From Dethiobacter sp. (GTDB lineage Bacteria > Bacillota > Dethiobacteria > Dethiobacterales > Dethiobacteraceae), in assembly GCA_018333635.1 (NCBI GenBank), contig JAGXTL010000037.1, positions 1 to 64,000 of the forward strand: a DNA stretch of 64,000 nucleotides, given 5' to 3'. A program made the position numbers and the translations under genes. Shown here one piece after another: positions 43,872 through 62,857 of the stretch (position 1 is its first letter; every line of letters starts with the position of its first letter). The notes under the pieces were generated by a model. It was given only the letters and a program-made list of their open reading frames with translations, made no database searches and was not told where the DNA came from.

Positions 43872-43915
43872 AATAATGTGGCGGTCCCGTGTAGCATTGG
43901 GCCCGCCACATTATT
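43872..43915. terminator. bidirectional terminator between exonuclease and mutase genes
   Basis: Thirteen-base-pair perfect stem AATAATGTGGCGG and its complement, with an inner CCC/GGG. A/T-rich flanks on both sides serve both convergent operons. The right arm touches the icmB stop codon. Confidence 0.8.
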
Positions 43916-44328
43916 TATGATAGCTTCTCTGTCATTGTACTGCGTATCCACTTTATAATTTCCCCGGTACGAATGCCCGGTGTAAAGAGCGCACCGGCGT
44001 AGCCGCCGTCAATCAGCTCTTTGATGTCATCGTCGGAGATAATTCCTCCGCCCATTACAATAATATCTTCCGCATTGTTTTCTTTCAACAGCTCGCAGAT
44101 ACGCGGAAAAATGGTCATATGAGCACCGGAGAGAACACTCAGGCCGATCATGTCCACATCTTCCTGGATGGCTGCTTCCACAATCTGTTCCGGTGTTTGG
44201 TGGAGGCCGGTGTAGACAACTTCCATTCCGGCATCACGCAGTGCTCTCGCCACTACTTTTGCACCGCGGTCGTGACCGTCCAACCCCGGCTTGGCTACAA
44301 GGACGCGGATTTTTCTCTCTGTATTCAT
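43915..44328 (-). CDS. icmB: B12-binding small subunit of acyl-CoA mutase (isobutyryl-CoA mutase-like)
   Basis: Cobalamin-binding subunit of a carbon-skeleton mutase. The DxHxxG motif is Asp17-x-His19-x2-Gly22 in [11 protein letters not shown], with SVLSGAH and GGGIISDDD completing the base-off B12 fold. 137 residues is usual for a detached B12 domain. It lies 17 bp after the large subunit gene. It would serve isobutyryl- or methylmalonyl-CoA mutase alike; I name it from the large subunit's active-site residues. Confidence 0.85.
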
Positions 44329-44345
44329 TCGCTTATCCCCTTCTG

Positions 44346-46007
44346 CTAGAAAATGGGCTTCTCTTTGTATTCCCCAAAGACTTCACGCAGCACCTGGATA
44401 ATTTCACCTTCTGTGGAATAGGCGCGGACAGCGTCAAGGATGTACGGTATCAGATTGTCACTGGTGCCGGCGGCTTTGCGCAGAGCTTCCAGACGGTTAG
44501 CGCAGACAATGTTGTCCCGCTTGGCGCGTACGTTTTGAACACGTTTATGCTGCTCCAATTCAATCTGCGGATCGATCTTTAGGAGGTCAACTTGCTGATG
44601 CTCTTCAATGATGTAATCGTTGACACCTACGATGATCCGTTCGTTTCTCTCAATTTCTTGCAGATAACGGTAGGCAGCGTCGGCGATTTCCTGCTGGAAG
44701 AAACCGGCAGCGATGGCAGGCAGAACTCCGCCAAAGCTGCCTATGCGCAGAAAGTATTTCTCTGCTTCCTCTTCCATGTAGTTAGTCAACGCTTCCACGA
44801 AGTAGGAGCCGGCCAGTGGATCAATGGTGTTCACTACACCTGTTTCCTCGGCGATGATTTGTTGTGTGCGCAACGCGATGCGCACGGATTTCTCTGAGGG
44901 CAATGCCAGCACTTCATCCATGGAGTTGGTGTGCAGCGACTGAGTGCCGCCTAGTACCGCTGCCATAGCCTCGTACGCTGTGCGGACGATGTTGTTTTCC
45001 GCTTGTTGTGCGGTGAGCGAGCAACCGGCAGTCTGGGTGTGGAAGCGCAACAGGAGGGAGCGCTCATCTTTGGCGCCGTATTTTTCTTTCATACGTCGTG
45101 CCCAGATCCGGCGAGCAGCGCGATATTTTGCGATTTCTTCGAAGAAATCAATATGAGCGTTAAAGAAGAAAGAAAGGCGCGGAGCAAAAGCGTCCACGTC
45201 GAGCCCTGCAGCCATTCCTGCTTCCACATAGGCGAACCCGTTGGCCAACGTAAATGCAAGTTCCTGAACAGCGGTGGAGCCGGCTTCCCTAATATGGTAG
45301 CCGGAGATGCTGACGGTGTTCCACTTGGGCACGTGCTGGCAGGCAAAGGCAAAGATGTCAGTGATAAGCCGCAGAGACGGTTCAGGTGGGAAAATCCATG
45401 ATTTCTGGGCGATGTATTCTTTGAGGATGTCGTTTTGAATGGTGCCACCCAGTTTATGAGATGCTACGCCCTGTTTTTCCGCTGTGGCGATATAGAGAGA
45501 CCAGAGGATGGCAGCAGGGGCGTTGATTGTCATGGATGTGGTGATTTTGTCAAGAGGAATACCAGAGAACAGAGTTTCCATATCATCAAGTGAGTCAATA
45601 GCCACTCCTACACGCCCTACTTCACCAAAGGCGCGGGGATGGTCGGAATCATAGCCCATGATGGTGGGCATATCGAATGCAACCGACAGGCCGGTCTGTC
45701 CCTGGCTTAAGAGGTATTTATAGCGCTCATTGGATTCTACGGCCGAGGCAAAACCGGCAAACTGACGCATTGTCCAGAGACGGCCACGGTACATATTTGC
45801 CTGAACGCCACGGGTATACGGATATGAGCCGGGGTAATTCAGCTCTGTCATATAGGATTGGCCTTGAATATCTTCAGGGGTGTAAAGCGGTTTGATGGGA
45901 ACGGAGGAGACTGTCATAAATTTATGGGGTCTATCCTGCATTTTCGAGACACACTCTTCCCACTCCTCTTTCCCCTGACAAATCTTGTCTTTGTCATTTG
46001 TGCACAT
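44346..46007 (-). CDS. icmA: acyl-CoA mutase large subunit, isobutyryl-CoA mutase-like
   Basis: B12-dependent mutase large subunit (553 residues, TIM barrel, no fused B12 domain). The two substrate-contact positions read Phe83 in TMRQFAGF and Gln201 in KEYIAQKSW, 118 residues apart. Methylmalonyl-CoA mutase has Tyr89/Arg207 and isobutyryl-CoA mutase Phe80/Gln198, the same spacing. Ala110 (LSVAFDMPT) argues against 2-hydroxyisobutyryl-CoA mutase, which has Asp there. The predicted reaction is isobutyryl-CoA to n-butyryl-CoA. The neighbours are butyryl-CoA beta-oxidation genes, which supports this. No MeaB-type G-protein chaperone is nearby. Confidence 0.85.
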
Positions 46008-46040
46008 CTTATTCCCCCCTGTCTTTCACATGTATTCAAC

Positions 46041-47186
46041 CTAGAGGCCTTTTCCCAGAGCCTTAGCGATAACAAGGCGCTGAATCTGGTTTGTACCTTC
46101 ATAAATCTGTGTAATCTTTGCGTCGCGCATCAGCCGCTCAACCGGATATTCACGGCTGTACCCGTAGCCGCCAAAGATTTGCACAGCTTCCGTTGTTACA
46201 GCCATAGCAGTGTCAGTAGCAAAATACTTTGCCATAGAAGCCTGTTTTCCGCATGGCAGTCCGTTTTCTTTACGGAACGCCGCCTGATAAACCAATAGCC
46301 GAGCCGCTTCAATCTGTGTAGCCATATCGGCCAGTTTGAAAGCGATGGCCTGATTATTAAATATGGGCTGTCCGAACTGCTCGCGGAACTGAGCATGTTT
46401 AAGAGCTTCATCATAAGCGGCTTGGGCAATCCCCAATCCTTGGGCTGCGATGCCAATGCGGCCCCCGTCTAAGAGGCTCATGGCGATTCTAAATCCTTCG
46501 CCTTCCTGCCCCAGACGCTGGCTAGCCGGGATACGGCAATCTTCAAAGACAAGCTCTGTGGTTATATCAGCGTTTAAGCCCATTTTCTTTTCAGCGGTGC
46601 CTACCCTGAACCCTGCTGTGTCTTTATCTACTAAAAGTGCTGTTATCCCTTTGCTTCCCAGGCTCCTGTCCACGGTGGCAAAAACGGTGTAGACATTGGC
46701 ATGACCGCCATTGGAGATGAAATTTTTCGTGCCGTTTAATACGTAATCATCACCGTCTTTTTTCGCCAAGGTACGCAAACCGGACGCGTCGGAGCCGGCA
46801 CCCGGCTCTGTTAGAGCAAACGCACCAAGGTATTTACCTGTGGCTAATTTAGATAGATATTTTTTCTTTTGTTCTTCTGTGCCAAAATAGAGTATAGGGA
46901 AAGTACCCACAGACGTATGAACAGATAGAATGACTCCGGTGGAGGCACAGGCGCGGGAGATCTCTTCAATACACAGGATATATGTGAGGAAATCGGCGCC
47001 GGCGCCATCATACTCTTGCGGAATGGGAATTCCCATAAAACCCAGTTCGCCCATTTTCCGGATATTGTCTGCCGGAAATTGTGCGGTTTCGTCATACATT
47101 GCCGCTTTTGGTGCAATCTCTTTTTGTGCAAAGTCATAGAACAGCTTTTGCATCATTTGGTGCTGTTCGTTTAATTTGAACTCCAT
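46041..47186 (-). CDS. short-chain acyl-CoA dehydrogenase (butyryl-CoA type)
   Basis: FAD enzyme oxidising an acyl-CoA to the 2-enoyl-CoA. [16 protein letters not shown] near residue 120 and [11 protein letters not shown] with catalytic Glu363 mark the short-chain family; a glutamate at that place is typical of butyryl-CoA dehydrogenases. 381 residues from ATG 47186, with GAGGAGGG upstream. The start lies inside the end of the hydroxyacyl dehydrogenase gene (53-base overlap). No etfAB genes are present here, so the electron acceptor is encoded elsewhere. Confidence 0.92.
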
Positions 47187-48045
47187 TGCAACCCTCCTCG
47201 TATTTGTAAAACCCTCTGCCCGACTTACGGCCAAGCCAACCTGCCGTCACATATTTGCGCAGCAACGGGCACGGACGGTATTTGGAATCCTTGAAACCGT
47301 CATAGAGAACTTCCATAATGGCAAGGCATGTATCAAGGCCGATCAGGTCAGCCAGCTCCAGCGGGCCCATCGGGTGGTTCATACCCAACTTCATCACTGT
47401 GTCAATCCCTGCCACAGAGCCGACGCCTTCCATCAGGCAATAGACCGCTTCGTTAATCATCGGCAGCAAAATTCGGTTGGCTACAAAGCCGGGGAAATCG
47501 TTTACTTCCACCGGAACTTTATCAAGCTTGACAGACAACTCGTCAACAATCTTAAATGTTTCATCGGATGTAGCAATGCCACGTATTACTTCAACTAGTT
47601 TCATAACAGGAACCGGATTCATAAAGTGCATTCCGATGACTTTTTCCGGCCTTTTTGTAGCTGCAGCGATTTGCGTTATAGGCAGAGATGATGTATTACT
47701 GGCCAGAATCGCATGAGGCGGACAAATCCTGTCAAGAGCAGAAAATATTTCTGACTTTAACTTCGGGTCTTCAGTGATAGCTTCGATGACAAGCTCCACA
47801 TTATGGCCGTCTTCCAATGAAAGCGTGGTGGAAATACGGCCAAGGACAGCATTCTTTTCCTCTACGCTCATACGGCCTTTTTTCACGTTGCTCGACAGGT
47901 TCTTTTCAATAATTTTCATGCCCCCGGCTACGAATTCGTCTTTAATATCTCTGAGCAGCACCTGATAACCTGCTTGGGCGCAAACCTGGGCAATCCCGCC
48001 GCCCATCTGTCCGGCTCCCAACACCATGATCTTTTTAATCTCCAA
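47134..48045 (-). CDS. 3-hydroxybutyryl-CoA dehydrogenase
   Basis: NAD-dependent oxidation of 3-hydroxybutyryl-CoA to acetoacetyl-CoA. It has the Rossmann motif [17 protein letters not shown] near residue 11, SNTSSLPIT, and [15 protein letters not shown] with the catalytic His. Family members end near [13 protein letters not shown]; here 16 extra residues extend into the acyl-CoA dehydrogenase gene. Start is TTG 48045, seven bases after GGGGA. 303 residues. It follows the thiolase gene by 29 bp. Confidence 0.94.
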
Positions 48046-48074
48046 AGCGTCTTCCCCTTTACCTTTTCCTTTTA

Positions 48075-49259
48075 CTACCGTTCCAGTCTAAGTATCGTGG
48101 CTTCGCCCTGAGCGGCACCGCTGCAGATCGTTGCCATGCCGTATTCGACTCCGCGCCGCTTCATTTCCGTCAACAGTGTCATTAAAATCCGGCCGCCGCT
48201 CGCTCCGATGGGATGGCCAAAGGCAATGGCACCACCGTTGACATTGACCACATCAGGATTCCAGTCACCCAGCTTAATGGCTGTGAGAGCCACGGCAGCA
48301 AACGCCTCATTCACTTCAATCAGGCTCAATTGGTCCGCAGTAAGACCGGCTTTCTCCAATGCTTTCTTCCCTGCTAAAGCAGGTACTGTGGCAATATACG
48401 GCGCGGGCGCTGATGCCGCTCCCTGTGACACGATGCTGGCCAACGGTTTTAGTCCCAGAGCCTCTGCTTTCTCACGCGACATTAACACCAAAGCAGACGC
48501 ACCGTCAGAAATAGGAGGCGCATTTCCCGCGGTCACACAGGCGCCTTTTTTAAAGATTGGCGGCAGCTTCGATAACGCTTCAAGATTTGTGCTTCGTCTC
48601 GGCAGTTCGTCTTTGTCAAAAACAAGCGGGTCGCCTTTTTTCTGCGGTATAACTACCGGGAATATTTCTTCCTGCAGCTTGCCTTCACTCATCGCCTTTA
48701 TGGCCAGCATGTGGCTTCTCAGCGCCCACTCGTCCTGAGCTTCTCGTCCAATGCCATACTCATCGGCCACATCACCGCCGTGTACACCCATATGGACATC
48801 GTGAATGGCACAGCAAAGACCGTCTTTTACCATTGAATCCAGCAGTTGCCCATCACCCATACGGTAACCGGTGCGTGCTTTTGGCAAAAGATAGGGCGCC
48901 GCAGACATATTCTCCATTCCCCCTGCTACGATGATATCGACCTCATTGGCCCGGATCATGGCGTCGCCAAGGTTAACCGCACGCAGACTTGAGGCACAAA
49001 CTTTGCCGATGGTATCGGACGGGACTTCCACCGGGAGCCCTGCTTTAATTGTGGCTTGACGGGAAGGAATCTGGCCCGCACCGGCCTGAATGACCATGCC
49101 CATCAAAACATAATCAATACTGCCCCCATCTATACCTGCCCGGGAGACAGCCTCTCTGATGGCGGCCGCGCCTAAGTCGACCGCCGCGACATCTTTCAAT
49201 GAACCCAAAAAACCACCAAACGGCGTCCTTGCAAAGCTGACAATAACAGTTTCTCTCAC
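48075..49259 (-). CDS. acetyl-CoA acetyltransferase (thiolase)
   Basis: Thiolytic cleavage of acetoacetyl-CoA to two acetyl-CoA, the last step of both the butyrate and isovalerate routes. The nucleophile is Cys88 in [10 protein letters not shown], with His349 in GHPIGASGG and Cys379 in CSGAAQGEA; the last motif is usually CGGGGQG-like, so its middle is slightly divergent. NEAFAA is present. 394 residues, GTG start with GAGGTG upstream. Confidence 0.94.
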
Positions 49260-49299
49260 TCACTCACCTCTGAATATTCTGTCTGAAAATGTCTTCGTC

Positions 49300-50952
49300 T
49301 CAGGAAAGATTGTTTTCCACTTTTTTAGTCAGTTTGCGTTCTTTTTCAAGTTCACGCAGTTCGATGCGTCGGATTTTCCCGCTGATCGTTTTTGGCAAAG
49401 CTTCCACGAACTCGATTTCACGCGGATATTTGTATGGCGCAGTGATTTTCTTGACAAAGTCCTGCAGTTCCTTGACCAGCGCCGCAGAGCCTTGGTAACC
49501 GGGCGCCAGAATGACAAAAGCCTTCACAATCTCGCCGCGAACCTCATCTGGGCTGGCTACAACGGCCGACTCCGCTACCGCCGGATGTTCAATCAACGCG
49601 CTCTCCACCTCAAAAGGACCAATCCGATAGCCGGACGTCAGGATTACATCGTCAGTCCGTCCGACAAACCAAATATAGTCATCCTTGTCCTTAATGCCGC
49701 GGTCGCCGGTGATATACCAGTCGCCGCGCACAGTGGCGGCAGTCCGCTCCGGCTCGTTAAAATACTCTTTAAAAAGACCGACGGGCCGCTTGGGAGTCAG
49801 TCTTACGGCAATATCGCCTTCATCTCCAGGCAGCACTTCCCTGCCATCATCGCCGATAATCCCGATATAAAAGCCAGGCGACATTTTGCCCATCGACCCG
49901 AAGCGCACTTCGTTGCAAGGGAAATTGCCGACAAGCAGAACTGTTTCAGTCTGCCCGTAACCGTCGTAAATAGTCAGGCCAGTCGCATCCTTCCAGACGT
50001 TCATAACCTCCGGGTTAAGCGGTTCTCCGGCAGCCACGCAATGACGCAACGTTTTAAAGTTATACTTCTTCAGATCTTCCAGCACGAAAACACGGAAAGC
50101 TGTCGGCGGGCCGCACAAAGTGGTAATCGGGTATTTCTCCAGCATTTGCAGGGTTAGCTTACCGTCAAATTTGCCGGTGCTGTAATGCTGAAAAATTGCG
50201 GCGCCGCAGTTCCAGGGGCCAAAGAAGCTGCTCCAGGCAGCTTTTGCCCAGCCGGTGTCGGACATATTCCAGTGCAGGTCGTCAGGCGTCAAGTCCAGCC
50301 AGAACTTACCGGTAATCCTGTGGCCTATGCCGTATGAGGCATGCGTATGTACCGTCATTTTCGGCAAACCGGTAGTGCCGGAAGTAAAATACAGCAGGGC
50401 ATTGTCATCAGCCCGCGTGTCAGCCGCCTCAAATCTGTCAGAGGCCTTGGCCAGTTCCTCGTCAAAAGAAAGCCAGCCTTCGCGTTTGCCGACCACGATC
50501 CTGGTGCGCAGCGTCGGACACTTATCGGCGACGACGTCCACCTTCGCGGCGGTTTCCTCATCAACGATGACGGCCACAGCGCCGGAAACGTCAAAGCGGT
50601 ACTCAATGTCTTTGGGAGTCAGTTGTAGCGTGCCGGGTGACACAATTATCCCGGCACGCAGACAGGCCAGCAATGTTATCCACCAGGCCGGCAAGCGACC
50701 GAGCACAAGTATCACCTTATCGCCGGACTTAACTCCCTGTCCTGCCAGGAAATTAGCCAACCTGCATGACAATTTGCTCAGCTCGGCAAAAGTATACTTT
50801 TGTTCCTGTCCAAAGTCATCTACCACCCATAAGGCTATCCTGGCAGGGTCCTGACCCCAATGGTCAAACTCGTCTCTTGCCCAGTTAAAGTGCTCAGGAA
50901 CTACCAGATTTAATGAACGGTAGGTTTCTTCGTAGTTTTTCATGTTTCCCAT
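49300..50952 (-). CDS. AMP-forming acyl-CoA synthetase, medium/short-chain type
   Basis: Activates a carboxylic acid with ATP and CoA. Motifs: YFTSGTTGLPKMTVHTH, YGQTET, TGDRG, GRTDDVI and the C-terminal PKTISGKIRR with the catalytic lysine. The pattern matches the acetyl/butyryl-CoA synthetase-like (ACSM) group. 550 residues from ATG 50952, seven bases after GGGAGG. Within the operon the likely substrates are isobutyrate and butyrate; use of a synthetase rather than a CoA transferase is notable for a low-energy metabolism. Confidence 0.9.
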   Translation of the reverse strand: MGNMKNYEETYRSLNLVVPEHFNWARDEFDHWGQDPARIALWVVDDFGQEQKYTFAELSKLSCRLANFLAGQGVKSGDKVILVLGRLPAWWITLLACLRAGIIVSPGTLQLTPKDIEYRFDVSGAVAVIVDEETAAKVDVVADKCPTLRTRIVVGKREGWLSFDEELAKASDRFEAADTRADDNALLYFTSGTTGLPKMTVHTHASYGIGHRITGKFWLDLTPDDLHWNMSDTGWAKAAWSSFFGPWNCGAAIFQHYSTGKFDGKLTLQMLEKYPITTLCGPPTAFRVFVLEDLKKYNFKTLRHCVAAGEPLNPEVMNVWKDATGLTIYDGYGQTETVLLVGNFPCNEVRFGSMGKMSPGFYIGIIGDDGREVLPGDEGDIAVRLTPKRPVGLFKEYFNEPERTAATVRGDWYITGDRGIKDKDDYIWFVGRTDDVILTSGYRIGPFEVESALIEHPAVAESAVVASPDEVRGEIVKAFVILAPGYQGSAALVKELQDFVKKITAPYKYPREIEFVEALPKTISGKIRRIELRELEKERKLTKKVENNLS

Positions 50953-51024
50953 TTTCTGCCCTCCCAAAATTAGATATTCTGCAGCACGCATTTAGGTTAA
51001 TAGGTACGAATTCCTGACACAATC

Positions 51025-52668
51025 TTAGACGTGGAGGTCGTCACAATACTGCTTAATTGTTTCCGCAGAAGCAGGCTTGGTTAACAGAGAGACTACGATG
51101 AAGAAAGCGAACGCCACAAAGACCCAATACCACTGATGCGGTGTGGAGATCCATTTACTTCTGTCGTCACCATACATCACTCTGCTAAGGAAGAACCAAT
51201 GCGGGCTGCCTAATACGCTTCGGGCATAGAGCCAAGAGTAAAGCACTAGCGGGAAGAAGACAATGATGTTAGCATATGTGGCAGCCCGTGTTGCTCTCGG
51301 CCACCAGAGACCAAGCACCAGCGGCACACCAAGCGTCGCCACAATCATTACAAACGCCCAACCGGAGAGGTCAAGCACCAGTGCTAATGGGTTAAAGGAG
51401 TAATATGTGCCCACAACAAGAATGAGCACGGTCATCAAACGAAGAGATTTAATCGGGTTTTCAATCGCCCACTTGTTGCCAAACACTTTGCCCAGCCAAT
51501 CACGACCAAGGAGTACATTACCCACAACAACCCAACCGGCTGCGGTTGACATCGCAATCGCCAAGCCGCCTGCCACCAGCAAGCCTAGGAGCCAAGGATT
51601 ACCCAGAGATTCAATAGCCGCAATCATCGAGTAATCGGTGACGGCAGCACCACCCACGCCAAAGTCGCCTTTAATTCTGGTCAAAACCTGTGTCACATTA
51701 GCAATAGTAACCGGGCCGTCTGCTGTGTTAAGGATTTGCCCCATCAGCGGATGCAGCGTTTCAATCAAATGACGTGCTGCTGTGCCGATGATAATCAGTC
51801 CCCAGTACATCGCGCCGCCAAATACGATGGTCCAAACAACGGACTTGCGGGCGGAACTTACGTCCATCGCTGTAAAGAAACGGACAACGGAGTAAGGCAT
51901 GGTAGCAAAGCCGAAGTGCCACACGAAGAAAAAGCCAATCACACCGGTCCACGATCTAAAGAGCGGGTGCGAAACTGCCCCCTCCGCCGATGCGTACGGC
52001 ATAAGCCAGAAATTCGGAGTGCTTGTAAATACAGCGTCGGCGAGGTTGCCGAACCCGCCGTAATGAAGGAGCACCGCAATGGCGCAGGCCACAGAAGCAA
52101 TCGCCATCAGTGCACCCTGGAACGCGGTTGACCAAGTGGTGGCCACCATACCGCCCAAATAAACATAGAAGAGAACTGCCAAGGCGCCGATTATTACAGC
52201 CCAAACAAACGGTACTTGCAGAATGGCCATCATGAACAGGCCTGTACCTACAAGCGATAGAACAACATACGCCCAGGTACCCATAAGAACCGGAATCCCG
52301 GTGATAATCCGCATCCATTTCTGATCTTCAAAACGGTCACAGTAGTAATCGGTAAAGGAAATGGGAGCATATTTGCGAAGAGGCGCAGCTGTCAACATAG
52401 TGGCCAACGGCATCCCGCCGATAATGCCGACCATCGCCCACCAGAACGGGTAGCCAAGCAAAAAGATAAACGCCGGCAGGCCAAGGAAACTGGCAGGGCT
52501 TAAGAACGTGGCGGCCAGAGCCGCGCCGTTGACAACCGGGCCGATTTTACGGCCGGCGAGATAATAGTCCATTGGATTCGTGGACGCTTTCCGGGTTACG
52601 TATCCAATAGTAAAAATAACCGCGAAATACGCAATCGTCATCACGATAACAATGGGATTAACCGCCAT
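51025..52668 (-). CDS. sodium:solute symporter (SSS family), monocarboxylate type
   Basis: Membrane symporter of about 13 segments and 547 residues. SSS features include YYLAGRKIGPVVNGAALAATF near residue 37, SPASFLGLPA and FGFATMPYSVVRFFTA. It resembles ActP-type monocarboxylate transporters. Its start overlaps the preceding small membrane protein by 11 bases. In this operon it probably imports isobutyrate, butyrate or a related acid with sodium. Confidence 0.9.
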   Translation of the reverse strand: MAVNPIVIVMTIAYFAVIFTIGYVTRKASTNPMDYYLAGRKIGPVVNGAALAATFLSPASFLGLPAFIFLLGYPFWWAMVGIIGGMPLATMLTAAPLRKYAPISFTDYYCDRFEDQKWMRIITGIPVLMGTWAYVVLSLVGTGLFMMAILQVPFVWAVIIGALAVLFYVYLGGMVATTWSTAFQGALMAIASVACAIAVLLHYGGFGNLADAVFTSTPNFWLMPYASAEGAVSHPLFRSWTGVIGFFFVWHFGFATMPYSVVRFFTAMDVSSARKSVVWTIVFGGAMYWGLIIIGTAARHLIETLHPLMGQILNTADGPVTIANVTQVLTRIKGDFGVGGAAVTDYSMIAAIESLGNPWLLGLLVAGGLAIAMSTAAGWVVVGNVLLGRDWLGKVFGNKWAIENPIKSLRLMTVLILVVGTYYSFNPLALVLDLSGWAFVMIVATLGVPLVLGLWWPRATRAATYANIIVFFPLVLYSWLYARSVLGSPHWFFLSRVMYGDDRSKWISTPHQWYWVFVAFAFFIVVSLLTKPASAETIKQYCDDLHV

Positions 52669-52918
52669 GCTTTTTCGCCTCCTGCCCCTTAGTTTTCTTG
52701 TCAGCCTGTTCAGGTAGCCAATAGAACAGGTAAGCTATTCCCAGTGGCAACAGATACAGTGCAACCACGTGCGTGTAAAGGAACGAGATAGGGGCGCCGC
52801 CAATCTTTACTCCGTAGGTCATCGCGGGAATCTTCATTTCCAAAATCATCAGAAGAAACACTAAACCGTAAAAAATACCCATTCCCCACCAAAAGTAAGA
52901 TTTCATTCCTTTAAACAA
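52658..52918 (-). CDS. small membrane subunit of SSS symporter (DUF4212-like)
   Basis: 86 residues with two hydrophobic segments (GIFYGLVFLLMILEM and ALYLLPLGIAYLFYWL) linked by VKIGGAPISFLYTHV, a pattern like the small DUF4212/DUF485 proteins that accompany acetate symporters. It overlaps the symporter start by 11 bases, indicating coupled expression. The exact family is not certain. Confidence 0.65.
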   Translation of the reverse strand: MFKGMKSYFWWGMGIFYGLVFLLMILEMKIPAMTYGVKIGGAPISFLYTHVVALYLLPLGIAYLFYWLPEQADKKTKGQEAKKHGG

Positions 52919-52931
52919 GTCGTCTCCTCCT

Positions 52932-53222
52932 TTATCCCTTCCTATTTTTGCTAGCCAAGTAAGAGTGTAGTTCTGTTAAGCCAAACATGGATGCCAACGG
53001 TACTGCCAGCCCAACAATGCCACCCATCAGGATATTGCGAGACAGGTCAAGGCCGGCAAAATAGAGCAGAAAATTAATCCCCACGCCTACCATGAAATAG
53101 AGCGTGTAAAAACGTCTTTTCCGGTACGCACGCTCCCAGTACCTGCGGTCTTCCTCTGACGCAAACTCCATACGGATCTTCTTGTTGCGTTGCTTTACTT
53201 CTAAAACGAATGGTTCCGCCAT
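52932..53222 (-). CDS. small membrane protein of unknown function, first gene of symporter operon
   Basis: About 96 residues: a charged N-terminal half (KKIRMEFASEEDRRYWERAY) and two hydrophobic segments (YTLYFMVGVGINFLLYFAG and ILMGGIVGLAVPLASMFGL). Start ATG 53222 is chosen; an upstream TTG/GTG extension to 53303 is possible but lies inside the leader below the sigma-54 promoter. It is the first gene after that promoter. I do not recognise the family; it may be an accessory of the symporter. Confidence 0.6.
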   Translation of the reverse strand: MAEPFVLEVKQRNKKIRMEFASEEDRRYWERAYRKRRFYTLYFMVGVGINFLLYFAGLDLSRNILMGGIVGLAVPLASMFGLTELHSYLASKNRKG

Positions 53223-53342
53223 TTTGTCACCTGCTTTGTTGTTTTTCTCTTCGATATCGCTTCCTTGCTTTTCCGCTTTGCTCACCCCCCAAATTTTTTG
53301 CAAAATTTTGAATTTAATTTATTTTATTTATATTCTGAATAT

Positions 53343-53358
53343 AGCAAATATTATGCCA
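53343..53358 (-). promoter_or_regulatory. sigma-54 promoter (-24/-12) of the isobutyrate operon
   Basis: On the minus strand TGGCATAATATTTGCT matches the consensus TGGCAC-N5-TTGCW with the right GG-to-GC spacing; only the less conserved sixth base differs. Transcription should begin near 53331, about 110 bases before the first small membrane gene. A sigma-54 activator is encoded immediately upstream. Confidence 0.85.
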
Positions 53359-53376
53359 ACTTCACTTCTTCTTACT

Positions 53377-53406
53377 GGCTATAGCCTATAAAGCTCGAAT
53401 ATAGCA
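53377..53406. promoter_or_regulatory. candidate enhancer (UAS) sequences for the sigma-54 activator
   Basis: The palindrome GGCTATAGCC (53377-53386) and a copy of GAATATAGCA (53397-53406), repeated at 53337-53346, lie 20-60 bases upstream of the -24 box. They are plausible activator sites, though not proven and somewhat close to the promoter. Confidence 0.35.
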
Positions 53407-53511
53407 GGGCTATTTTTCTTGCCGAAGACCGAAAGAGATACAGTCACAATCATATCTTAACAGCAACTTGATTTTCTGCTGCATCAATTAATGCACCTTA
53501 TCATCACAGTG

Positions 53512-55257: not shown

Positions 55258-55300
55258 AACAGCCCCTCCTATGATGACAAAATGCATCAAGCGTCAATAG

Positions 55301-55837
55301 TTATTCTTCCAGAGAAAATTCCCATGCGCAATAATATTCATCAGGGTGCTTGTCAGGCGGACAAGTTATGCATTTGGTTTTTATCCTAGGATCTATGGTC
55401 CTGGCAAAACCGGAGTATTCTAAGATGCCAACTGTCTTACATGGGAAATCCGGCAAGTTTTTTCTTCTCCTGGCAACCTGAACGCGACAGTTATTCATTC
55501 TAAAGACAAGTTGATTTGAATTAACCCAAAGTATTTCCTGTTTATTAATAAAAGCGTAAAGTCTGAAATTTAAAGCTTTGGCCAGGGATTTGAGGCCACC
55601 ATTTTCAGGCAGGCTTAGGGTTTCCATAATCCTTTTGGCTTCGACAACGGTAAACTTCTCCCAAGCCATTTCATCAAGCTCAATAGCAGCTTCCATTCCG
55701 AATTTTTTCTCGGCAGCCTGAAACCATAACCCGTCGTGGGCCAACCAGCGTTTGCATAAATCTTTGATAAAGTTTTGCAGCTCTTCCCTACTCATCTCTT
55801 CCAAGCTTTCAAATACCGGCGAATCCTTTATTTCCAT
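55301..55837 (-). CDS. DUF6125-like protein
   Basis: About 178 residues resembling the DUF6125 family, some members of which are linked to sulfur heterocycle hydrolases; no function is proven. It begins MEIKDSPVFESLEEMSREEL and has an N-terminal helical region, then a C-terminal cysteine group (CITCPPDKHPDEYYC). The second ATG (55837) is chosen because GGAGG lies five bases before it. It lies between acetoacetyl-CoA synthetase and the regulator gene and may be cotranscribed with the latter. Confidence 0.6.
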   Translation of the reverse strand: MEIKDSPVFESLEEMSREELQNFIKDLCKRWLAHDGLWFQAAEKKFGMEAAIELDEMAWEKFTVVEAKRIMETLSLPENGGLKSLAKALNFRLYAFINKQEILWVNSNQLVFRMNNCRVQVARRRKNLPDFPCKTVGILEYSGFARTIDPRIKTKCITCPPDKHPDEYYCAWEFSLEE

Positions 55838-55854
55838 ATTAACCTCCATTCACA

Positions 55855-55901
55855 TTGTTACTGTTTTTGCACTAGTCATTTAATCTGAACTACAGTAACA
55901 A
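55855..55901. repeat. 10-bp inverted repeat with 27-base spacer
   Basis: TTGTTACTGT (55855-55864) and ACAGTAACAA (55892-55901) are exact complements flanking 27 bases, between the acetoacetyl-CoA synthetase and DUF6125 genes. It may be a long-loop attenuator or a two-site operator. No T tract follows. Confidence 0.6.
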
Positions 55902-55907
55902 ACCTAT

Positions 55908-57860
55908 TTAGAAGCTTAATTCCGGCAGCCTCCTAAATAAATCTAGAGCAGCGGGGTTAGCCAGAGCATCCCTGTTTAAGACTGGCTCATCATGAATGAT
56001 GCTGCGCACTGCCATTTCCACCTTTTTACCGTTTAAAGTATATGGAATATCACTAATGGCAATGATTTTTGCTGGCACGTGTCTAGGCGTTGTATTAGCC
56101 TTGATGGTATCTTTAATCTTTTTGATTAAATTTTCATCGAGAACAAGACTGTCGGCTAATTTTACAAAAAGAATTACTCTGACATCATTCTCCCAGTTTT
56201 GACCTACCACAATACTGTCAAGAATTTCAGGAATAATCCCTACTTGCCGGTATATTTCGGCTGTGCCAATTCTAACTCCACCGGGATTTAAAGTTGCATC
56301 AGAACGGCCATGAATTATTACCCCGCCCGAATCGGTAATTTCTATGTAATCGCCATGTCTCCAAAAATTTGGGTAAAAATCAAAGTATGCCTGTTTGTAT
56401 TTCTTCTGTTCCGGATCATTCCAGAAATATATGGGCATTGAGGGAAAAGGGGCGGTGCAGACCAGTTCTCCCTTTTGGTTAATCTGTGGCTCCCCCAGAG
56501 CATCAAAGCTTTGCACTTTCATGCCTAATCCGCGGCACTGAAGCTCCCTGGCAAACACAGGGCCTATAGGGTTGCCCAAAGCGAAGCAGGATATAATATC
56601 AGTGCCCCCTGAAATTGAAGAAAGACATATGTCCTCCTTAATACCCCGGTATACATATTCAAAACTTTCCAAGGCCAGAGGAGAACCTGTCGATAAAAGT
56701 GTCTTTAATTTGCCCAAATCATAGCAATCTCCCGGCTTATCCATGACTTTTTCCAGCGATTCCAGGTATTTGGCGCTAGTTCCAAAAATATTTATTCCCT
56801 CATCCTGGGCAAGCTTAAACAGTGTCCCTGGGTCTGGATAGAATGGAGAGCCCTCAAAGAGCACCACTGTTGCCCCTACAGCCAAGGAGCTGACCAGCCA
56901 ATTCCACATCATCCAGCCACAGGTAGTGTAATAAAAAATAGTCTCGCCTTGTTTAAGGTCAGAATGAAGAATTAATTCCTTTAAGTGCTGGATTAATGTT
57001 CCGCCTGCACCGTGGACTATGCATTTAGGAACACCCGTTGTTCCGGAGGAATACATAATGTAAACCGGGTGATCAAAGGACAACTGGGTAAATTCAATTT
57101 CCAGACCTTCTTCTGGTGAAAGGAAGCTTTCATATAGGACAGCCTTGGGCAAGTTGCTGATATCCGGTTCCGGCACAGTATATGGAACTACTACAACTTT
57201 TTCTATGGTAGGAAGATCCTTCAAGATACCCGTTACTCTTTCCAGTGAATCGATCAGTTTTCCGTTATATGAATAGCCATTGGCGGTAAAGAGAACTTTG
57301 GGCTGAATTTGTCCAAAACGGTCAAAAACCCCTTTTATCCCAAAATCTGGCGAACAGGAAGACCAAATGGCTCCTATACTCGTGGTGGCCAGCATAGCAA
57401 TAACAGCTTCAATCATATTTGGCATAAAGCCCGCTACCCGGTCCCCCGTGATTACCCCCATTTCTCGAAGGGACTTGGCAACACGGGCCACCTGGTCATA
57501 AAGATTCCCATAGGTTATTTTCTTAATCTCAGATGTTTCACCCTTAAAGACTAATGCGGTACTATCGTCACGAAGGCGCAACAGATTTTCGGCAAAATTA
57601 AGCTTTGCTCCTGTAAACCATTGGGCTGTAAGCATAACTTCGGAATTAATCAGAACATGGTCATAGGAACGGGAGGCTTTTATCTCGCCAAATTCCCACA
57701 TGGCCTCCCAAAAGGCAGTGTATTCCACAACGGACCAGTTGTATAAATCATTATAGGTGCTAAAACTCTGCTTATATTTTTTGTTTATAAACTCCATAAA
57801 ACTGGTCATATTAGCATGCTTTATTCTTTCCTCTGAAGGTGTCCATAACAACTTATTCAT
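55908..57860 (-). CDS. acetoacetyl-CoA synthetase
   Basis: Activates acetoacetate to acetoacetyl-CoA with ATP. 650 residues is the length of AacS. YSSGTTGVPKCIVHGAGGTL, TTCGWMMWNWLVSSLA and the late LNGKKVEMAVRS with the catalytic lysine are typical, as is WFTGAKLNFAENLL near residue 82. It completes the leucine/isovalerate pathway by recovering the acetoacetate released by HMG-CoA lyase. It lies 114 bp after the carboxyltransferase gene. Confidence 0.92.
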   Translation of the reverse strand: MNKLLWTPSEERIKHANMTSFMEFINKKYKQSFSTYNDLYNWSVVEYTAFWEAMWEFGEIKASRSYDHVLINSEVMLTAQWFTGAKLNFAENLLRLRDDSTALVFKGETSEIKKITYGNLYDQVARVAKSLREMGVITGDRVAGFMPNMIEAVIAMLATTSIGAIWSSCSPDFGIKGVFDRFGQIQPKVLFTANGYSYNGKLIDSLERVTGILKDLPTIEKVVVVPYTVPEPDISNLPKAVLYESFLSPEEGLEIEFTQLSFDHPVYIMYSSGTTGVPKCIVHGAGGTLIQHLKELILHSDLKQGETIFYYTTCGWMMWNWLVSSLAVGATVVLFEGSPFYPDPGTLFKLAQDEGINIFGTSAKYLESLEKVMDKPGDCYDLGKLKTLLSTGSPLALESFEYVYRGIKEDICLSSISGGTDIISCFALGNPIGPVFARELQCRGLGMKVQSFDALGEPQINQKGELVCTAPFPSMPIYFWNDPEQKKYKQAYFDFYPNFWRHGDYIEITDSGGVIIHGRSDATLNPGGVRIGTAEIYRQVGIIPEILDSIVVGQNWENDVRVILFVKLADSLVLDENLIKKIKDTIKANTTPRHVPAKIIAISDIPYTLNGKKVEMAVRSIIHDEPVLNRDALANPAALDLFRRLPELSF

Positions 57861-57974
57861 ACCTCTACCTCCCTAATTTTATTTGCTGATTGGTAGAGCA
57901 AAAGCCTCATGGCCTGTTAAGACAGAATTACGTTTTATTGCTCCTCCCAGATTAAAGGCATAATTCCCCATCAG

Positions 57975-59546
57975 TTAAACCGGTGTCACAGGGCGCTTAC
58001 GGTCAGAAAAGGACATTTCTTTTGAGGCATAGGTATTAAAGCGAGCAATAAGCTCTTCCCTTAGCTCGTTGGCAGGTATTACTCCATCGATGATTAACTC
58101 TGAAGCTAAACGATATATATTAATATCTTCCCGGTATTCTTTGCGCTTCTCCTCAATGAAGGCTGACCTGGCATGTTCCTCTAAGGCGATAATCTTGTTA
58201 CTATATACTGCATTTACAGCCGCCTCCGGACCCATTACAGCTATCTGTGCCGTCGGCAAAGCAAGGCAGCAGTCTGGTTCAAAGGCCGGACCGCACATAG
58301 CGTATAAACCTGCGCCATAAGCTTTTCTTACCACAATAGATATTTTGGGAACTGTTGCTTCTGACATGGCGCTTACCATTTTGGCTCCATGCCTGATTAT
58401 ACCTGCTCGCTCAACTTTAGTCCCTATCATGAAACCTGGAACATCCATTAAGAAAAGCAGAGGCATATTAAAGGCATCACATAGGGTCATAAAGCGGGTC
58501 GCTTTGTCGGCAGTATCGACAAAAATTACGCCACCCTTGACCTTAGACTGATTAGCAATGATTCCCACAGCCCGACCGCCAATCCTAGCGAAACCGGTGA
58601 TTAATTCCTGGGCAAATAGTTTTTTCATTTCAAAGAAACTGCCCTCATCTATGACACCATTGATAAACTCCTCCATATCGAAGGGTGCATTCTGATCCTT
58701 GGGTACTATCTGCTCTAAGGGTCTGCCAACCGCCGGGGCTTTTATCTCTGTTAGAGCAGTTTTTTCCTTATAGCTGGCGGGAAAAAAGCTGAGGTATTTT
58801 TTCGCAAATGCGATGGCTTCTTCCTCATTTTTGGCTAATACATCACCGCAGCCGCTTACACTGCAATGCATTCTGGCACCGCCCATTTCTTCAAGTGTAA
58901 CCTTCTCCCCGATTACCATTTCAGCCATCCGTGGCGAACCGAGATACATACTGGCGTTTTTATCTACCATAATCACAACATCACAGAAAGCTGGGATATA
59001 GGCGCCACCTGCTGCGGAAGGCCCAAAAAGAAGGCAGACCTGAGGAACGGTCCCGGACATTTTTACCTGATTATAAAAAATCCTGCCTGCCCCTCGCCGT
59101 CCAGGGAACATTTCGATTTGGTCTGTAATTCTGGCCCCTGCGGAATCAACAAGGTATAACATGGGAATCTTCAGCTTAGCAGCCGTTTCCTGAATGCGAA
59201 TTATCTTTTCCACGGTTCGCCATCCCCACGAACCAGCTTTTACAGTAGAATCATTGGCCATAAAACAAACATTTTGGCCGTTAATAGTACCAGTTCCACA
59301 GACAACCCCATCGGCTGGCAAGTCGTCGGCCAGGCAATTAGCCCAGAGACCATCCTCTGCTTCCACATCGGCATCAAACAATAATTTTAACCGCTCGCGT
59401 ACAAAAAGTTTAGATTGAGACTGAGAGGCTTTATGATACTTTTCGGCCCCTCCCTTTTTTACTATTATTCGTTTATTTTTTAAAGCTTCATCTGTATTGT
59501 CAGCACCTTTTTCAACTATGGTTAAGCTGTCTTGGGTCGTACTCAT
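57975..59546 (-). CDS. acyl-CoA carboxylase carboxyltransferase subunit (methylcrotonyl-CoA type)
   Basis: Carboxyltransferase subunit transferring CO2 from biotin to an acyl-CoA. 523 residues with both crotonase-like halves: GPSAAGGAYIPAFCDVVIMVD in the first and GFARIGGRAVGIIANQSKVKGG plus GAGLYAMCGPAFEPDCCLAL in the second. The neighbouring hydratase and HMG-CoA lyase indicate 3-methylcrotonyl-CoA as substrate; propionyl-CoA carboxylase is the alternative by sequence. It is two bases from the hydratase gene. Confidence 0.88.
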   Translation of the reverse strand: MSTTQDSLTIVEKGADNTDEALKNKRIIVKKGGAEKYHKASQSQSKLFVRERLKLLFDADVEAEDGLWANCLADDLPADGVVCGTGTINGQNVCFMANDSTVKAGSWGWRTVEKIIRIQETAAKLKIPMLYLVDSAGARITDQIEMFPGRRGAGRIFYNQVKMSGTVPQVCLLFGPSAAGGAYIPAFCDVVIMVDKNASMYLGSPRMAEMVIGEKVTLEEMGGARMHCSVSGCGDVLAKNEEEAIAFAKKYLSFFPASYKEKTALTEIKAPAVGRPLEQIVPKDQNAPFDMEEFINGVIDEGSFFEMKKLFAQELITGFARIGGRAVGIIANQSKVKGGVIFVDTADKATRFMTLCDAFNMPLLFLMDVPGFMIGTKVERAGIIRHGAKMVSAMSEATVPKISIVVRKAYGAGLYAMCGPAFEPDCCLALPTAQIAVMGPEAAVNAVYSNKIIALEEHARSAFIEEKRKEYREDINIYRLASELIIDGVIPANELREELIARFNTYASKEMSFSDRKRPVTPV

Positions 59547-59548
59547 AA

Positions 59549-60328
59549 TTACTCCCCCCTATATTGTGGTTTTCTTTTTTCTTTGAAGGCCGCAAGTCCC
59601 TCTAAGCGGTCTTTGGTAGGCAAACATATCTCGTAAGCTTTGGCCTCAATATTGAGCCCAGTTTCTAAATCCACCTCTGAACCATGATTAATAGCAAACT
59701 TTGCCTGTTGCACAGCGATGGGAGCATTGTTATTGATTAATGCTGCCATTTCTTGGGCAGCGACGGTTGCGCTGACAGAACTTACCAGCTTATTTACTAA
59801 GCCTAGCTCAAATGCTTCATGAGCATTCAATTTTCGCCCGGTAAATATAATTTCCTTAGCTACTCCCTTGCCTACTAGCCTAGTCAAACGTTGAGTACCG
59901 CCAGCGCCGGGGATAATTCCCAGGGAAACTTCTGTCAGTCCGATAGTAGCAGTTTCACTGGCTATACGAATATCGCACGCTAAAGCCAGCTCAGCGCCTC
60001 CACCCAGAGCCAAGCCATTAATGGCAGCTATAACAGGAACCTGTAAATTTTCTATTGCTGTAAGGGTACTGCGGATTGTGCCTAAGAATTCTTTAACTTG
60101 AATATGGGTTAGTCCGGCCCGTTCCTTTAAGTCAGCACCGGCTGAAAAGGCCTTGGTACCAGCTCCGGTTATAATAACTGTTCTCAAGCTAGTATTAAAG
60201 CGAAGGTCGTTGATAAGCTTTTGAAGTTCTTTAAGAGTGGGGAAATTTAAAGCATTCATTTGTTCAGGCCGGTTAATGGTTATGAGGCAGCTGTATCCTT
60301 GAAATTCTACAGATAATCCTTCGTCCAT
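59549..60328 (-). CDS. enoyl-CoA hydratase, methylglutaconyl-CoA hydratase-like
   Basis: Crotonase-fold hydratase of 259 residues. AFSAGADLKE forms part of the oxyanion hole, followed by NGLALGGGAELALACDIRIA and LTEVSLGIIPGAGGTQRL with the two catalytic glutamates. In the cluster it should hydrate 3-methylglutaconyl-CoA to HMG-CoA; because the butyrate operon lacks its own crotonase, it could also act on crotonyl-CoA. It overlaps the HMG-CoA lyase gene by 22 bases. Confidence 0.88.
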   Translation of the reverse strand: MDEGLSVEFQGYSCLITINRPEQMNALNFPTLKELQKLINDLRFNTSLRTVIITGAGTKAFSAGADLKERAGLTHIQVKEFLGTIRSTLTAIENLQVPVIAAINGLALGGGAELALACDIRIASETATIGLTEVSLGIIPGAGGTQRLTRLVGKGVAKEIIFTGRKLNAHEAFELGLVNKLVSSVSATVAAQEMAALINNNAPIAVQQAKFAINHGSEVDLETGLNIEAKAYEICLPTKDRLEGLAAFKEKRKPQYRGE

Positions 60329-61248
60329 GCTATCACCTCATCACAAGCAAAAGTGCTGGCTTGTAAATATTTGCTCGGCAGCTTACGCTCCAAGAGCTTT
60401 TGGGCATATCGACTACAATCGACTAGCTTATTTAGGTTTATACCTGTCTTTACCCCCATTCCGTGAAACATATAAACTAAGTCTTCCGTGGCAATGTTTC
60501 CGGAAGCGCCAGGGGCAAAGGGGCAACCGCCTAGTCCCCCGAAGCTACTGTCAAAAGTACTAATACCGCATTGAAGAGCAGCAAGAGCATTGGCCAAGCC
60601 GCTGCCTCGGGTATCATGAAAATGGACTGCTATTTTATTAAGATCAATGTCATGGGAAAGGAAATTTACTACGTCTGAAACTTGCTTAGGATTAGCTACA
60701 CCTGTTGTGTCACTGATAGCTACCTCGTAGACCCCTGCGGATAATAGCTCCTGGCAAATCTCTAATACTTTCTGGGATTCAGTCGGACCATCAAAGGGGC
60801 AACCGAACACTGTAGAAAGATTTGCCCGAACTTTGATGTTAACGGATAAGGCTTGGTTAATTACCTCTTTACCAATTCTTATAGCTTCTTTAACAGATTT
60901 GTTAATGTTCTTCTGGCTGTGGCTTTCACTGGCCGAAAGAAAAAAAACTACTTCTTTTATTCCGGTAGCTTGAGCACTATCCAGGCCTCTATTATTTGGT
61001 ACCAAAGCAGAGTAGGTAATGTTTTGACTCCTTTCAATAGAAACAGCAACTTCCAACGAATCTGCTAACTGGGGTATCCACTTAGGGCTGACAAAGGAAG
61101 TAATCTCAATTTGCTCTAACCCAGTTTGGTTAAGCATATTGATTAGCCTGATTTTTTCTTGGGTGGGGATAAAATTCTTTTCATTTTGTAGTCCATCCCG
61201 CATACCAACTTCAACTACTTTTACTTTCCGAGGCAGCTTTTCAAACAT
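60307..61248 (-). CDS. hydroxymethylglutaryl-CoA lyase
   Basis: Cleaves HMG-CoA to acetyl-CoA and acetoacetate. EVGMRDGLQNE holds Arg17 and Asp18, HFHDTRGSGLANALAAL holds the metal histidines, and GLGGCPFAPGASGNIATEDL holds the active-site cysteine. 313 residues, family length. It lies 16 bp downstream of the biotinyl carrier gene and overlaps the hydratase. Confidence 0.95.
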   Translation of the reverse strand: MFEKLPRKVKVVEVGMRDGLQNEKNFIPTQEKIRLINMLNQTGLEQIEITSFVSPKWIPQLADSLEVAVSIERSQNITYSALVPNNRGLDSAQATGIKEVVFFLSASESHSQKNINKSVKEAIRIGKEVINQALSVNIKVRANLSTVFGCPFDGPTESQKVLEICQELLSAGVYEVAISDTTGVANPKQVSDVVNFLSHDIDLNKIAVHFHDTRGSGLANALAALQCGISTFDSSFGGLGGCPFAPGASGNIATEDLVYMFHGMGVKTGINLNKLVDCSRYAQKLLERKLPSKYLQASTFACDEVIAWTKDYL

Positions 61249-61264
61249 TTCTTAATCACCCCCG

Positions 61265-61477
61265 CTACTCCAAGACAATTAATGCATCACCCTCATTTAC
61301 AAAATCCCCTATATTCACTTTGATTTCCTTAACTATACCGCTGTCAATGGCTTGAATTGGTATTTCCATTTTCATAGACTCTAGGATAACTGCATCTTCC
61401 CCACTGTTTAACTGGTCGCCGTGGCTAACCAGAAGACTTAAAACTAAGCCGGCCATGGTTGCATATATTACTTTCAA
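61265..61477 (-). CDS. biotin carboxyl carrier (biotinyl domain) protein
   Basis: Free-standing 70-residue biotinyl domain. Biotin is attached to Lys36 in ILESMKMEIPI. Two flanking hemi-barrels repeat the SHGDQLNSGE and NIGDFVNEGD pattern. It lies three bases after the biotin carboxylase gene and supplies the swinging arm between it and the carboxyltransferase, giving a three-part methylcrotonyl-CoA carboxylase. Confidence 0.93.
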   Translation of the reverse strand: MKVIYATMAGLVLSLLVSHGDQLNSGEDAVILESMKMEIPIQAIDSGIVKEIKVNIGDFVNEGDALIVLE

Positions 61478-61480
61478 ACT

Positions 61481-62824
61481 TCATTCCTCCGTTAATATTT
61501 GTTCAATTAAATTAGTATGGGTCTCACCGGCAATGAATTTGGGATGGGATATTACTTTTTGCAAAATGGGAATATTGACCTTGATTCCTTCTGCTTGAAA
61601 GTCCTCCAAAGCCTTAACCATTCTGTTTATGGCTTCCTGGCGGTCGTTGCCCCAGGTAATGATTTTGCCTAACATAGGGTCATAATAGGGGCTGACAATG
61701 TATCCGGAACATATTCCAAAATCATTTCTAACAAAATCTCCTTCGGGCAATGTTAAACTGTTAACTTTGCCTGGCGAGGGCAACAATGTCTTAGGATCTT
61801 CAGCATAAATCCGGCATTCAATCGCGTGACCCTGCAATTTGGGTTTATCTTTTTCTTCATCTAACTTCTTACCGGCAGCGACGAGAATTTGTTCCTCAAC
61901 CAGGTCATAACCGGTGATCATCTCTGTAATGGGATGCTCCACTTGCAGACGGGTGTTCATTTCCAGAAAATAGAAGTTCTTGTCTTTATCCATTAAGAAC
62001 TCTACAGTTCCGGCATTGGAATAACCTATTGCCTTGGCTCCTTGGACGGCAACATTCCCTATTTTCTCTCTTAATTTTTCGTCCACGAAAGCAGAAGGAG
62101 CTTCTTCAACTACTTTCTGATGACGTCTCTGAATCGAGCATTCCCTTTCAAAAAGATGGATCGTATTGCCATAATTATCAGCTAAGAGTTGGACTTCAAT
62201 ATGCCGGGGACTTTCTAGATACTTTTCCATATAAACCGAATCATCATCAAAATAAGCCTTGGCCCTGCCTTGACAAGCTTTTAAGGCTTTTTCCATTTCA
62301 TCATCTTTATGAACTATTTGCATGCCAATGCCTCCGCCACCAGCTGAGGCTTTTATCATGACCGGATAGCCTAATTCAATGGCAAATCCCTTTGCCTGAG
62401 CGACATCATTAATATGTTTTTCAAATCCGGCGACAATAGGCACACCGGCAGCTTTCATGATTTCCCTGGCCCGGACCTTGCCGCCCATTTTAGCAATAAC
62501 CTCAGGTTTTGGTCCGATAAAAATTATACCCTCGACCTGACAGCGGCGTGCGAACTCTGGATTTTCCGACAACAGCCCATATCCAGGGTGGATAGCTTCG
62601 GCGCACGCTTCTTTGGCAACAGCTAAAATGCGATCCATATTTAGATAACTTTGCGAGACCCGGGAAGGGCCTACATGAAAGGCCCGCCCGGCTAGTTTAA
62701 CATGAGGAGCTTCAGCATCAGCATCGGAATAGATAGCAATGGCTTCTATCCCAAGTTTTTGGCAGCTTTTAATTATTCTAACAGCTATCTCTCCCCGGTT
62801 AGCAATTAATACCTTTGAAAACAT
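61481..62824 (-). CDS. biotin carboxylase subunit of acyl-CoA carboxylase
   Basis: ATP-grasp enzyme that carboxylates biotin with bicarbonate. FSKVLIANRGEIAVRII at the N-terminus, HPGYGLLSENPEFA, KASAGGGGIGMQIV in the ATP lid and FLEMNTRLQVEHPITEMITG are all present. 447 residues, the length of a detached biotin carboxylase. The missing biotinyl domain is the next gene. In this context it is part of methylcrotonyl-CoA carboxylase, not fatty-acid ACC, since the fab genes are elsewhere. Confidence 0.95.
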   Translation of the reverse strand: MFSKVLIANRGEIAVRIIKSCQKLGIEAIAIYSDADAEAPHVKLAGRAFHVGPSRVSQSYLNMDRILAVAKEACAEAIHPGYGLLSENPEFARRCQVEGIIFIGPKPEVIAKMGGKVRAREIMKAAGVPIVAGFEKHINDVAQAKGFAIELGYPVMIKASAGGGGIGMQIVHKDDEMEKALKACQGRAKAYFDDDSVYMEKYLESPRHIEVQLLADNYGNTIHLFERECSIQRRHQKVVEEAPSAFVDEKLREKIGNVAVQGAKAIGYSNAGTVEFLMDKDKNFYFLEMNTRLQVEHPITEMITGYDLVEEQILVAAGKKLDEEKDKPKLQGHAIECRIYAEDPKTLLPSPGKVNSLTLPEGDFVRNDFGICSGYIVSPYYDPMLGKIITWGNDRQEAINRMVKALEDFQAEGIKVNIPILQKVISHPKFIAGETHTNLIEQILTEE

Positions 62825-62857
62825 AGTTTCACCTACCCTGCCAATTAAGTTCTTTAT

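Follow-up and report, generated by a model that had tools for sequence, protein, structure and literature searches.

The window, meaning the whole 64,000-nucleotide stretch of Dethiobacter DNA analysed here, carries on its minus strand a gene for a bacterial enhancer-binding protein (bEBP; hereafter the activator), followed by a -24/-12 element and a predicted operon (Table 1). This operon opens with a pair of genes for small membrane-like proteins, followed by one for a sodium:solute symporter, whose closest NCBIfam entry is the VC_2705 family, at a score under the cut-off. The two small proteins invariably lie 5' of the symporter (52658-53303 in the window, and loci L164, L174, L182, L196, and L206) and may be accessory subunits. 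The remaining genes encode a short/branched-chain acyl-CoA synthetase (MbcS-like), a thiolase, a 3-hydroxyacyl-CoA dehydrogenase, an acyl-CoA dehydrogenase, and a B12-dependent acyl-CoA mutase. The mutase stands at the operon end (43915-46007) with separate large and small subunits; methylmalonyl- or isobutyryl-CoA are candidate substrates.

A second predicted operon, again on a single strand, begins with an acyl-CoA dehydrogenase gene and has the activator as its last gene. The portion tabulated below comprises genes for an acyl-CoA ligase, biotin carboxylase, BCCP, HMG-CoA lyase, enoyl-CoA hydratase, carboxyltransferase, acetoacetyl-CoA synthetase, and a DUF6125 protein, with the HMG-CoA lyase and the acetoacetate-CoA ligase scoring above their NCBIfam cut-offs. 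The DUF6125 gene (55301-55849) sits between acetoacetyl-CoA synthetase and the activator, and no terminator-like site was found on the minus strand from 53512 to 56000. From established pathway knowledge, this gene set is the one expected for oxidation of a putative leucine/isovalerate-type substrate via methylcrotonyl-CoA and HMG-CoA.

Table 1. Features of the activator locus, in window coordinates.
Feature	Position	Strand	Basis
Acyl-CoA enzyme genes, remainder of the symporter operon	43915..50991	-	domain and NCBIfam searches
Sodium:solute symporter	51025..52668	-	PF00474
Second small membrane-like protein, 86 aa, no Pfam family	52658..52918	-	orthologs in relatives
First operon gene, small membrane-like protein, no Pfam family	52932..53303	-	orthologous in all six genomes
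Sigma-54 core promoter, -24/-12, TGGCATAATATTTGCT	53343..53358	-	pattern match; positional conservation in G004, G005, G006, G009, G017
GGCTATAGCC dyad, first proposal, not conserved	53377..53386	.	leader comparison
GAATATAGCA upstream copy, first proposal, chance level in relatives	53397..53406	+	leader comparison
UAS 2, TGATGCAGCAGAAAATCA, putative bEBP site	53469..53486	-	held-out PWM 12.9-15.2; tandem layout conserved
UAS 1, TGATGATAAGGTGCATTA, putative bEBP site	53489..53506	-	motif conservation and PWM
Activator, PAS-PAS-AAA(GSFTGA)-Fis bEBP, 581 aa	53512..55257	-	domain search and motifs
UAS-like perfect inverted repeat TGATGCATTTTGTCATCA, putative autoregulatory site	55272..55289	-	held-out PWM
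Second target operon, partly in window	55301..63940	-	domain and NCBIfam searches

An earlier note on this DNA had described a consensus -24/-12 promoter with exact spacing in the leader of the symporter operon, and both parts of that description held. Read on the minus strand (53358-53343), TGGCATAATATTTGCT is a perfect match to TGGCAYRN4TTGCW with a six-base gap between TGGCA and TTGC, and it occupies an intergenic leader 5' of a gene. A search of the whole genome (2.39 Mb, 98% complete) returned nine perfect sites against one for the reversed-pattern control, and six genomes gave 63 against seven when pooled. The majority of the nine stand immediately 5' of metabolic genes. That note would have abandoned its reading if the genome lacked rpoN; the gene is present, with a PF04552 score of 202 bits, an ORF of 465 aa, the RpoN box RRTVAKYR, and an intact DNA-binding domain. 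On the evidence of pattern and position, 53343-53358 is a genuine, conserved sigma-54 promoter.

Other matches were recorded in passing. Perfect sites at L023 (C90:96430), L025 (C95:8393), L026 (C35:115636), and L029 (C100:2864) of the source genome lie ahead of iron-sulfur/hydrogenase-like, iron alcohol dehydrogenase-like, thiolase, and acyl-CoA dehydrogenase genes. Within the window, a near-perfect match at 10713-10727 runs antisense inside a plsX-like gene and is regarded as chance; further near-perfect matches lie at 12323 and 25798.

The gene next door had been described as a PAS-AAA-Fis activator ending 154 bases upstream of the promoter on the same strand. Its end at 53512 agrees with this, and two PAS domains were found in the N-terminal sensor region, ahead of a Sigma54_activat domain and a C-terminal Fis-type HTH (HTH_50, HTH_8). 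The AAA+ domain has Walker A, Walker B, an arginine finger, and the GAFTGA loop in the form GSFTGA, with the motifs GESGVGKE at 294, GSFTGA at 341, GTLLLDE at 361, and REDLFYRL at 421. The GSFTGA form of the loop counts as an accepted variant (PMC6615313).

Nineteen genomes of the family were compared, and the activator is present in six: the source genome (G000) and G004, G005, G006, G009, and G017, whose orthologs are 74-78% identical to the G000 protein. All six share one gene order on one strand, with the activator followed by the sigma-54 box, the two small membrane-like proteins, and the symporter. In five of them the box lies 152-187 bases past the activator stop codon; the distance is 562 bases in G004, where an additional copy of the first small-protein gene separates activator and promoter. 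The core promoter is identical between G000 and G004 over 28 bp (TTGGCATAATATTTGCTATATTCAGAAT). Aligned with the G004 locus (L164), window positions 53330-53359 show that these 28 bp, which span the core promoter and the beginning of the transcribed region, are identical between the two genera, and that the rest of the leader has diverged. ATATTCAGA was seen again in G005, downstream of the -12 element.

What is conserved within these leaders is an inverted repeat of 18 bp, TGATGYA-N4-TRCATCA. In the window it occurs twice in tandem directly after the activator stop codon (53506-53469, in the order TGATGATAAGGTGCATTA-at-TGATGCAGCAGAAAATCA), with a 2-bp gap that places the two centres 20 bp apart, or about two helical turns. 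This two-site arrangement, 2-bp gap included, is also found in G004 and at a second sigma-54 promoter of G000, the one preceding the second operon (promoter C81:65754-65769, 1.8 kb past the window end; tandem sites C81:65924-65961). The junction of the two sites (TGCATTAATTGATGCA, 53480-53495) forms a palindrome that is retained in G005, G006, and G017. This palindrome, TGCAT-N6-ATGCA, was itself considered as the UAS and set aside, being the junction of two tandem 18-bp sites; it is matched exactly at two places in the genome, this leader being one, and is weaker in G004 and G009. A motif directly linked to TGGCA, no more than 30 bp away, was also discarded, having yielded one unrelated match.

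Allowing up to two mismatches to TGATG-N8-CATCA, the seven leaders contain 13 sites against an expectation of 0.95 (0 of 300 shuffles), although the test is not fully blind because the motif was first spotted by eye in these same leaders. The repeat is present in all seven, whereas 5 of the 57 remaining sigma-54 promoters in these genomes have it; some sites are weak, and the G009 leader has a single good one. A PWM built from the other genomes only, with G000 excluded from training, was run across the window plus 6 kb of adjoining sequence (L022). Its best score, 20.4, fell at the leader of the second promoter and the next, 19.6, at the activator's own leader; the maximum in 20 random 64-kb sequences was 15.2. 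The caveat on blindness applies to these scores as well. The genome-wide motif search was done by pattern rather than by PWM, and the one-mismatch scan returned 117 sites, which is too loose for a regulon list. From this pattern of conservation, the activator's UAS is probably the tandem TGATGYA-N4-TRCATCA repeats and not the motifs first proposed.

A leave-one-genome-out PWM scan also revealed unexpected site clusters in G004, G005, and G017, each at a distance of 81-113 bp on the 5' side of a sigma-54 box (TGGCATTRTTYTTGCG) that the strict pattern had missed. In each case the box is 5' of an enoyl-CoA hydratase gene and then an acyl-CoA dehydrogenase gene whose product is 86-89% identical to that of the first gene of the G000 second operon; in G005 and G017, an HMG-CoA lyase gene lies between the two. 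These clusters are support for the motif that is more independent than the shuffle test. Of the 19 genomes, precisely the six with the activator have an ortholog of this acyl-CoA dehydrogenase (82-89%), and the remaining 13 lack one; in G006, a contig end cuts off the DNA upstream of the operon. One repeat site in G005 is also 5' of acetoacetyl-CoA synthetase. The acetoacetyl-CoA synthetase promoters in G006, G009, G017, and L073 have sigma-54 boxes (L182 8815, reverse complement; L197 1112; L202 1102; L073 7877) without a clear UAS copy, and another activator may therefore act on them. A candidate further target is a thiolase-like gene in G004, with a sigma-54 promoter (L168; G004:C54:7080-7095) and two or three UAS copies.

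The repeat TGATGCATTTTGTCATCA, just before the activator's ribosome-binding site, is the best held-out PWM match within the window (19.6 bits) and is kept with no more than one mismatch in G004, G005, G006, G017, and L073. As a UAS-type repeat in this position that is conserved in five other genomes, it suggests autoregulation and might act in repression. Near a contig end in G006 (L182; G006:C82 near 26607), a tandem repeat (GCAGACACACAGGTCTGCCCCTACACCGG...) lies upstream of the activator, beside a divergent sigma-54-like box, TGGCATTGTTTTTGCT.

The sites first proposed for the activator were a GGCTATAGCC dyad and a repeated GAATATAGCA, one copy of which, overlapping the -12 element, was thought to permit repression as well. 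Both are present as described: the dyad is a perfect palindrome near the promoter, and GAATATAGCA occurs at 53337-53346, over the -12 element, and at 53397-53406. As activator sites, however, they found no support, and both were rejected. GGCTATAGCC is absent, even at two mismatches, from all six other leaders of the same regulon, and the frequency of GAATATAGCA in the comparison leaders is that of shuffled sequence. The copy over the -12 element falls inside the 28 bp identical to the G004 promoter and is hence a piece of the core promoter and the earliest transcribed sequence, not a separate operator; G004, moreover, shares this core promoter yet lacks the second GAATATAGCA copy upstream. 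Activator binding at GGCTATAGCC and GAATATAGCA, with repression through the copy over the -12 element, is given very little credence. The repeat at the activator's ribosome-binding site could instead work as an RNA hairpin in translation, since it lies directly 5' of that site in several genomes and could form a five-pair stem. It is, however, the same 18-bp motif that occupies enhancer positions upstream of sigma-54 promoters, and the hairpin is considered unlikely, if much less so than the other alternatives weighed here.

The promoter could be real and yet be served by another of the genome's bEBPs, of which there are four with strong Sigma54_activat matches, and Fis-type HTHs are able to share sites. 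Against this, the TGATG repeat co-occurs with the activator and is limited to promoters around the activator and its linked genes, including the activator's own leader, whereas two of the other bEBPs (C90:98181 and C95:3192) have nearby sigma-54 promoters that lack it. Only a slim chance is left to such a substitute. Slimmer than either this or the GGCTATAGCC/GAATATAGCA proposal is the chance that a sigma-70-type promoter drives the transcript and that the -24/-12 match is coincidental: a sigma-70-like match (9/12) does overlap 53343-53358, but such matches are as numerous as in shuffled sequence (7 vs 5.4), and the position of the -24/-12 box is kept in six genomes in which the flanking sequence is not. 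The adjoining bEBP had been named as the likely activator, and the invariant order of activator, box, and symporter, together with the conserved repeats near its linked genes, favours that assignment; the activator encoded next door is likely to drive the promoter at 53343-53358.

From the promoter, rpoN, the activator's domains, and the conservation of both the repeats and the target genes, we infer the following circuit. Dimers of the activator would bind the two 18-bp inverted repeats, 110-150 bp upstream of the -24 element, and there assemble an AAA+ oligomer that loops to the closed sigma-54 RNA polymerase. On sensing a signal through its PAS domains, for which an acyl acid, a keto acid, or the CoA ester of one is the probable ligand, the activator would then open the polymerase complex. 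The same repeats would activate the second sigma-54 promoter and with it the acyl-CoA dehydrogenase/biotin carboxylase/HMG-CoA lyase/acetoacetyl-CoA synthetase operon. If that operon is co-transcribed, the activator, as its last gene, would be produced by an operon under its own control, and the repeat at its ribosome-binding site would let it limit its own synthesis. We place the probability of this reading as a whole (sigma-54 promoter, neighbouring PAS-PAS-AAA-Fis activator, shared repeats, second operon, and self-limitation) at roughly 0.85.

The term "butyrate genes" in the earlier note was too narrow, in that the shared UAS ties the symporter/acyl-CoA ligase/thiolase operon to an HMG-CoA-lyase operon of the leucine/isovalerate type. 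Because the UAS is common to both operons and to the activator leader, the regulon is probably one of leucine/isovalerate-type acyl-CoA catabolism with autoregulation, extending beyond butyrate alone. The chances are about even that this constitutes an undescribed sigma-54 regulon of the Dethiobacteria, with a single PAS bEBP turning on uptake and activation together with leucine/isovalerate-type oxidation via HMG-CoA and acetoacetate, through two operons flanking or near its gene; in G000 there would be a positive loop from its last-gene position and a negative loop from the strong site at its ribosome-binding site. A single promoter guess is thereby turned into a testable regulon with a defined, predicted 18-bp operator, and acyl-CoA genes are predicted to be switched on jointly in a lineage of mostly uncultured anaerobes. 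The case also illustrates that a plausible operator picked by eye beside a promoter can mislead when the conserved one lies about a hundred bases off.

Among known systems, Bacillus thuringiensis GabR is a sigma-54 activator with the same PAS-AAA-HTH architecture and is induced by pathway metabolites (PMC4279683); it does not bind at its own promoter, whereas the Dethiobacter activator has a UAS-like repeat in its own leader. AtoC of Escherichia coli resembles it in activating, through sigma-54, genes that break down short-chain fatty acids and acetoacetate (atoDAEB), and in having a pair of neighbouring inverted sites, 20 bp each and 40 bp together, upstream of the promoter (PMC3118216). AtoC is, however, a two-component response regulator, and the Dethiobacter activator is a one-component PAS-PAS protein with a different site sequence; against the AtoC equivalog (NCBIfam NF008469) it scores 309.5, below the cut-off of 714, with PAS in place of the receiver.

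The PAS-containing bEBPs of Clostridiales, examples of which include CrbR, XcgR, AhcR, PrdR, and LeuR, adjoin their targets, with UASs mostly 100-250 bp upstream (Nie et al. 2019, PMC6615313). The activator does not reach the cut-off of the PrdR equivalog (NCBIfam NF041552; 473.8 vs 795), and its targets are genes of acyl-CoA catabolism rather than of PrdR-type proline reductase. LeuR controls reductive leucine use (hadAIBC), unlike the predicted targets here, and none of the 39 groups listed by Nie et al. combines HMG-CoA lyase, a carboxylase, and acetoacetyl-CoA synthetase. The resemblance is one of a one-component regulator beside its target operon, with a sigma-54 box and targets in acyl-CoA or amino-acid catabolism, and the Dethiobacter activator belongs within this broad Clostridiales-type class (PMC6615313). 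It is a new, if ordinary, instance of a familiar type of bacterial switch, the bEBP/sigma-54 pair.
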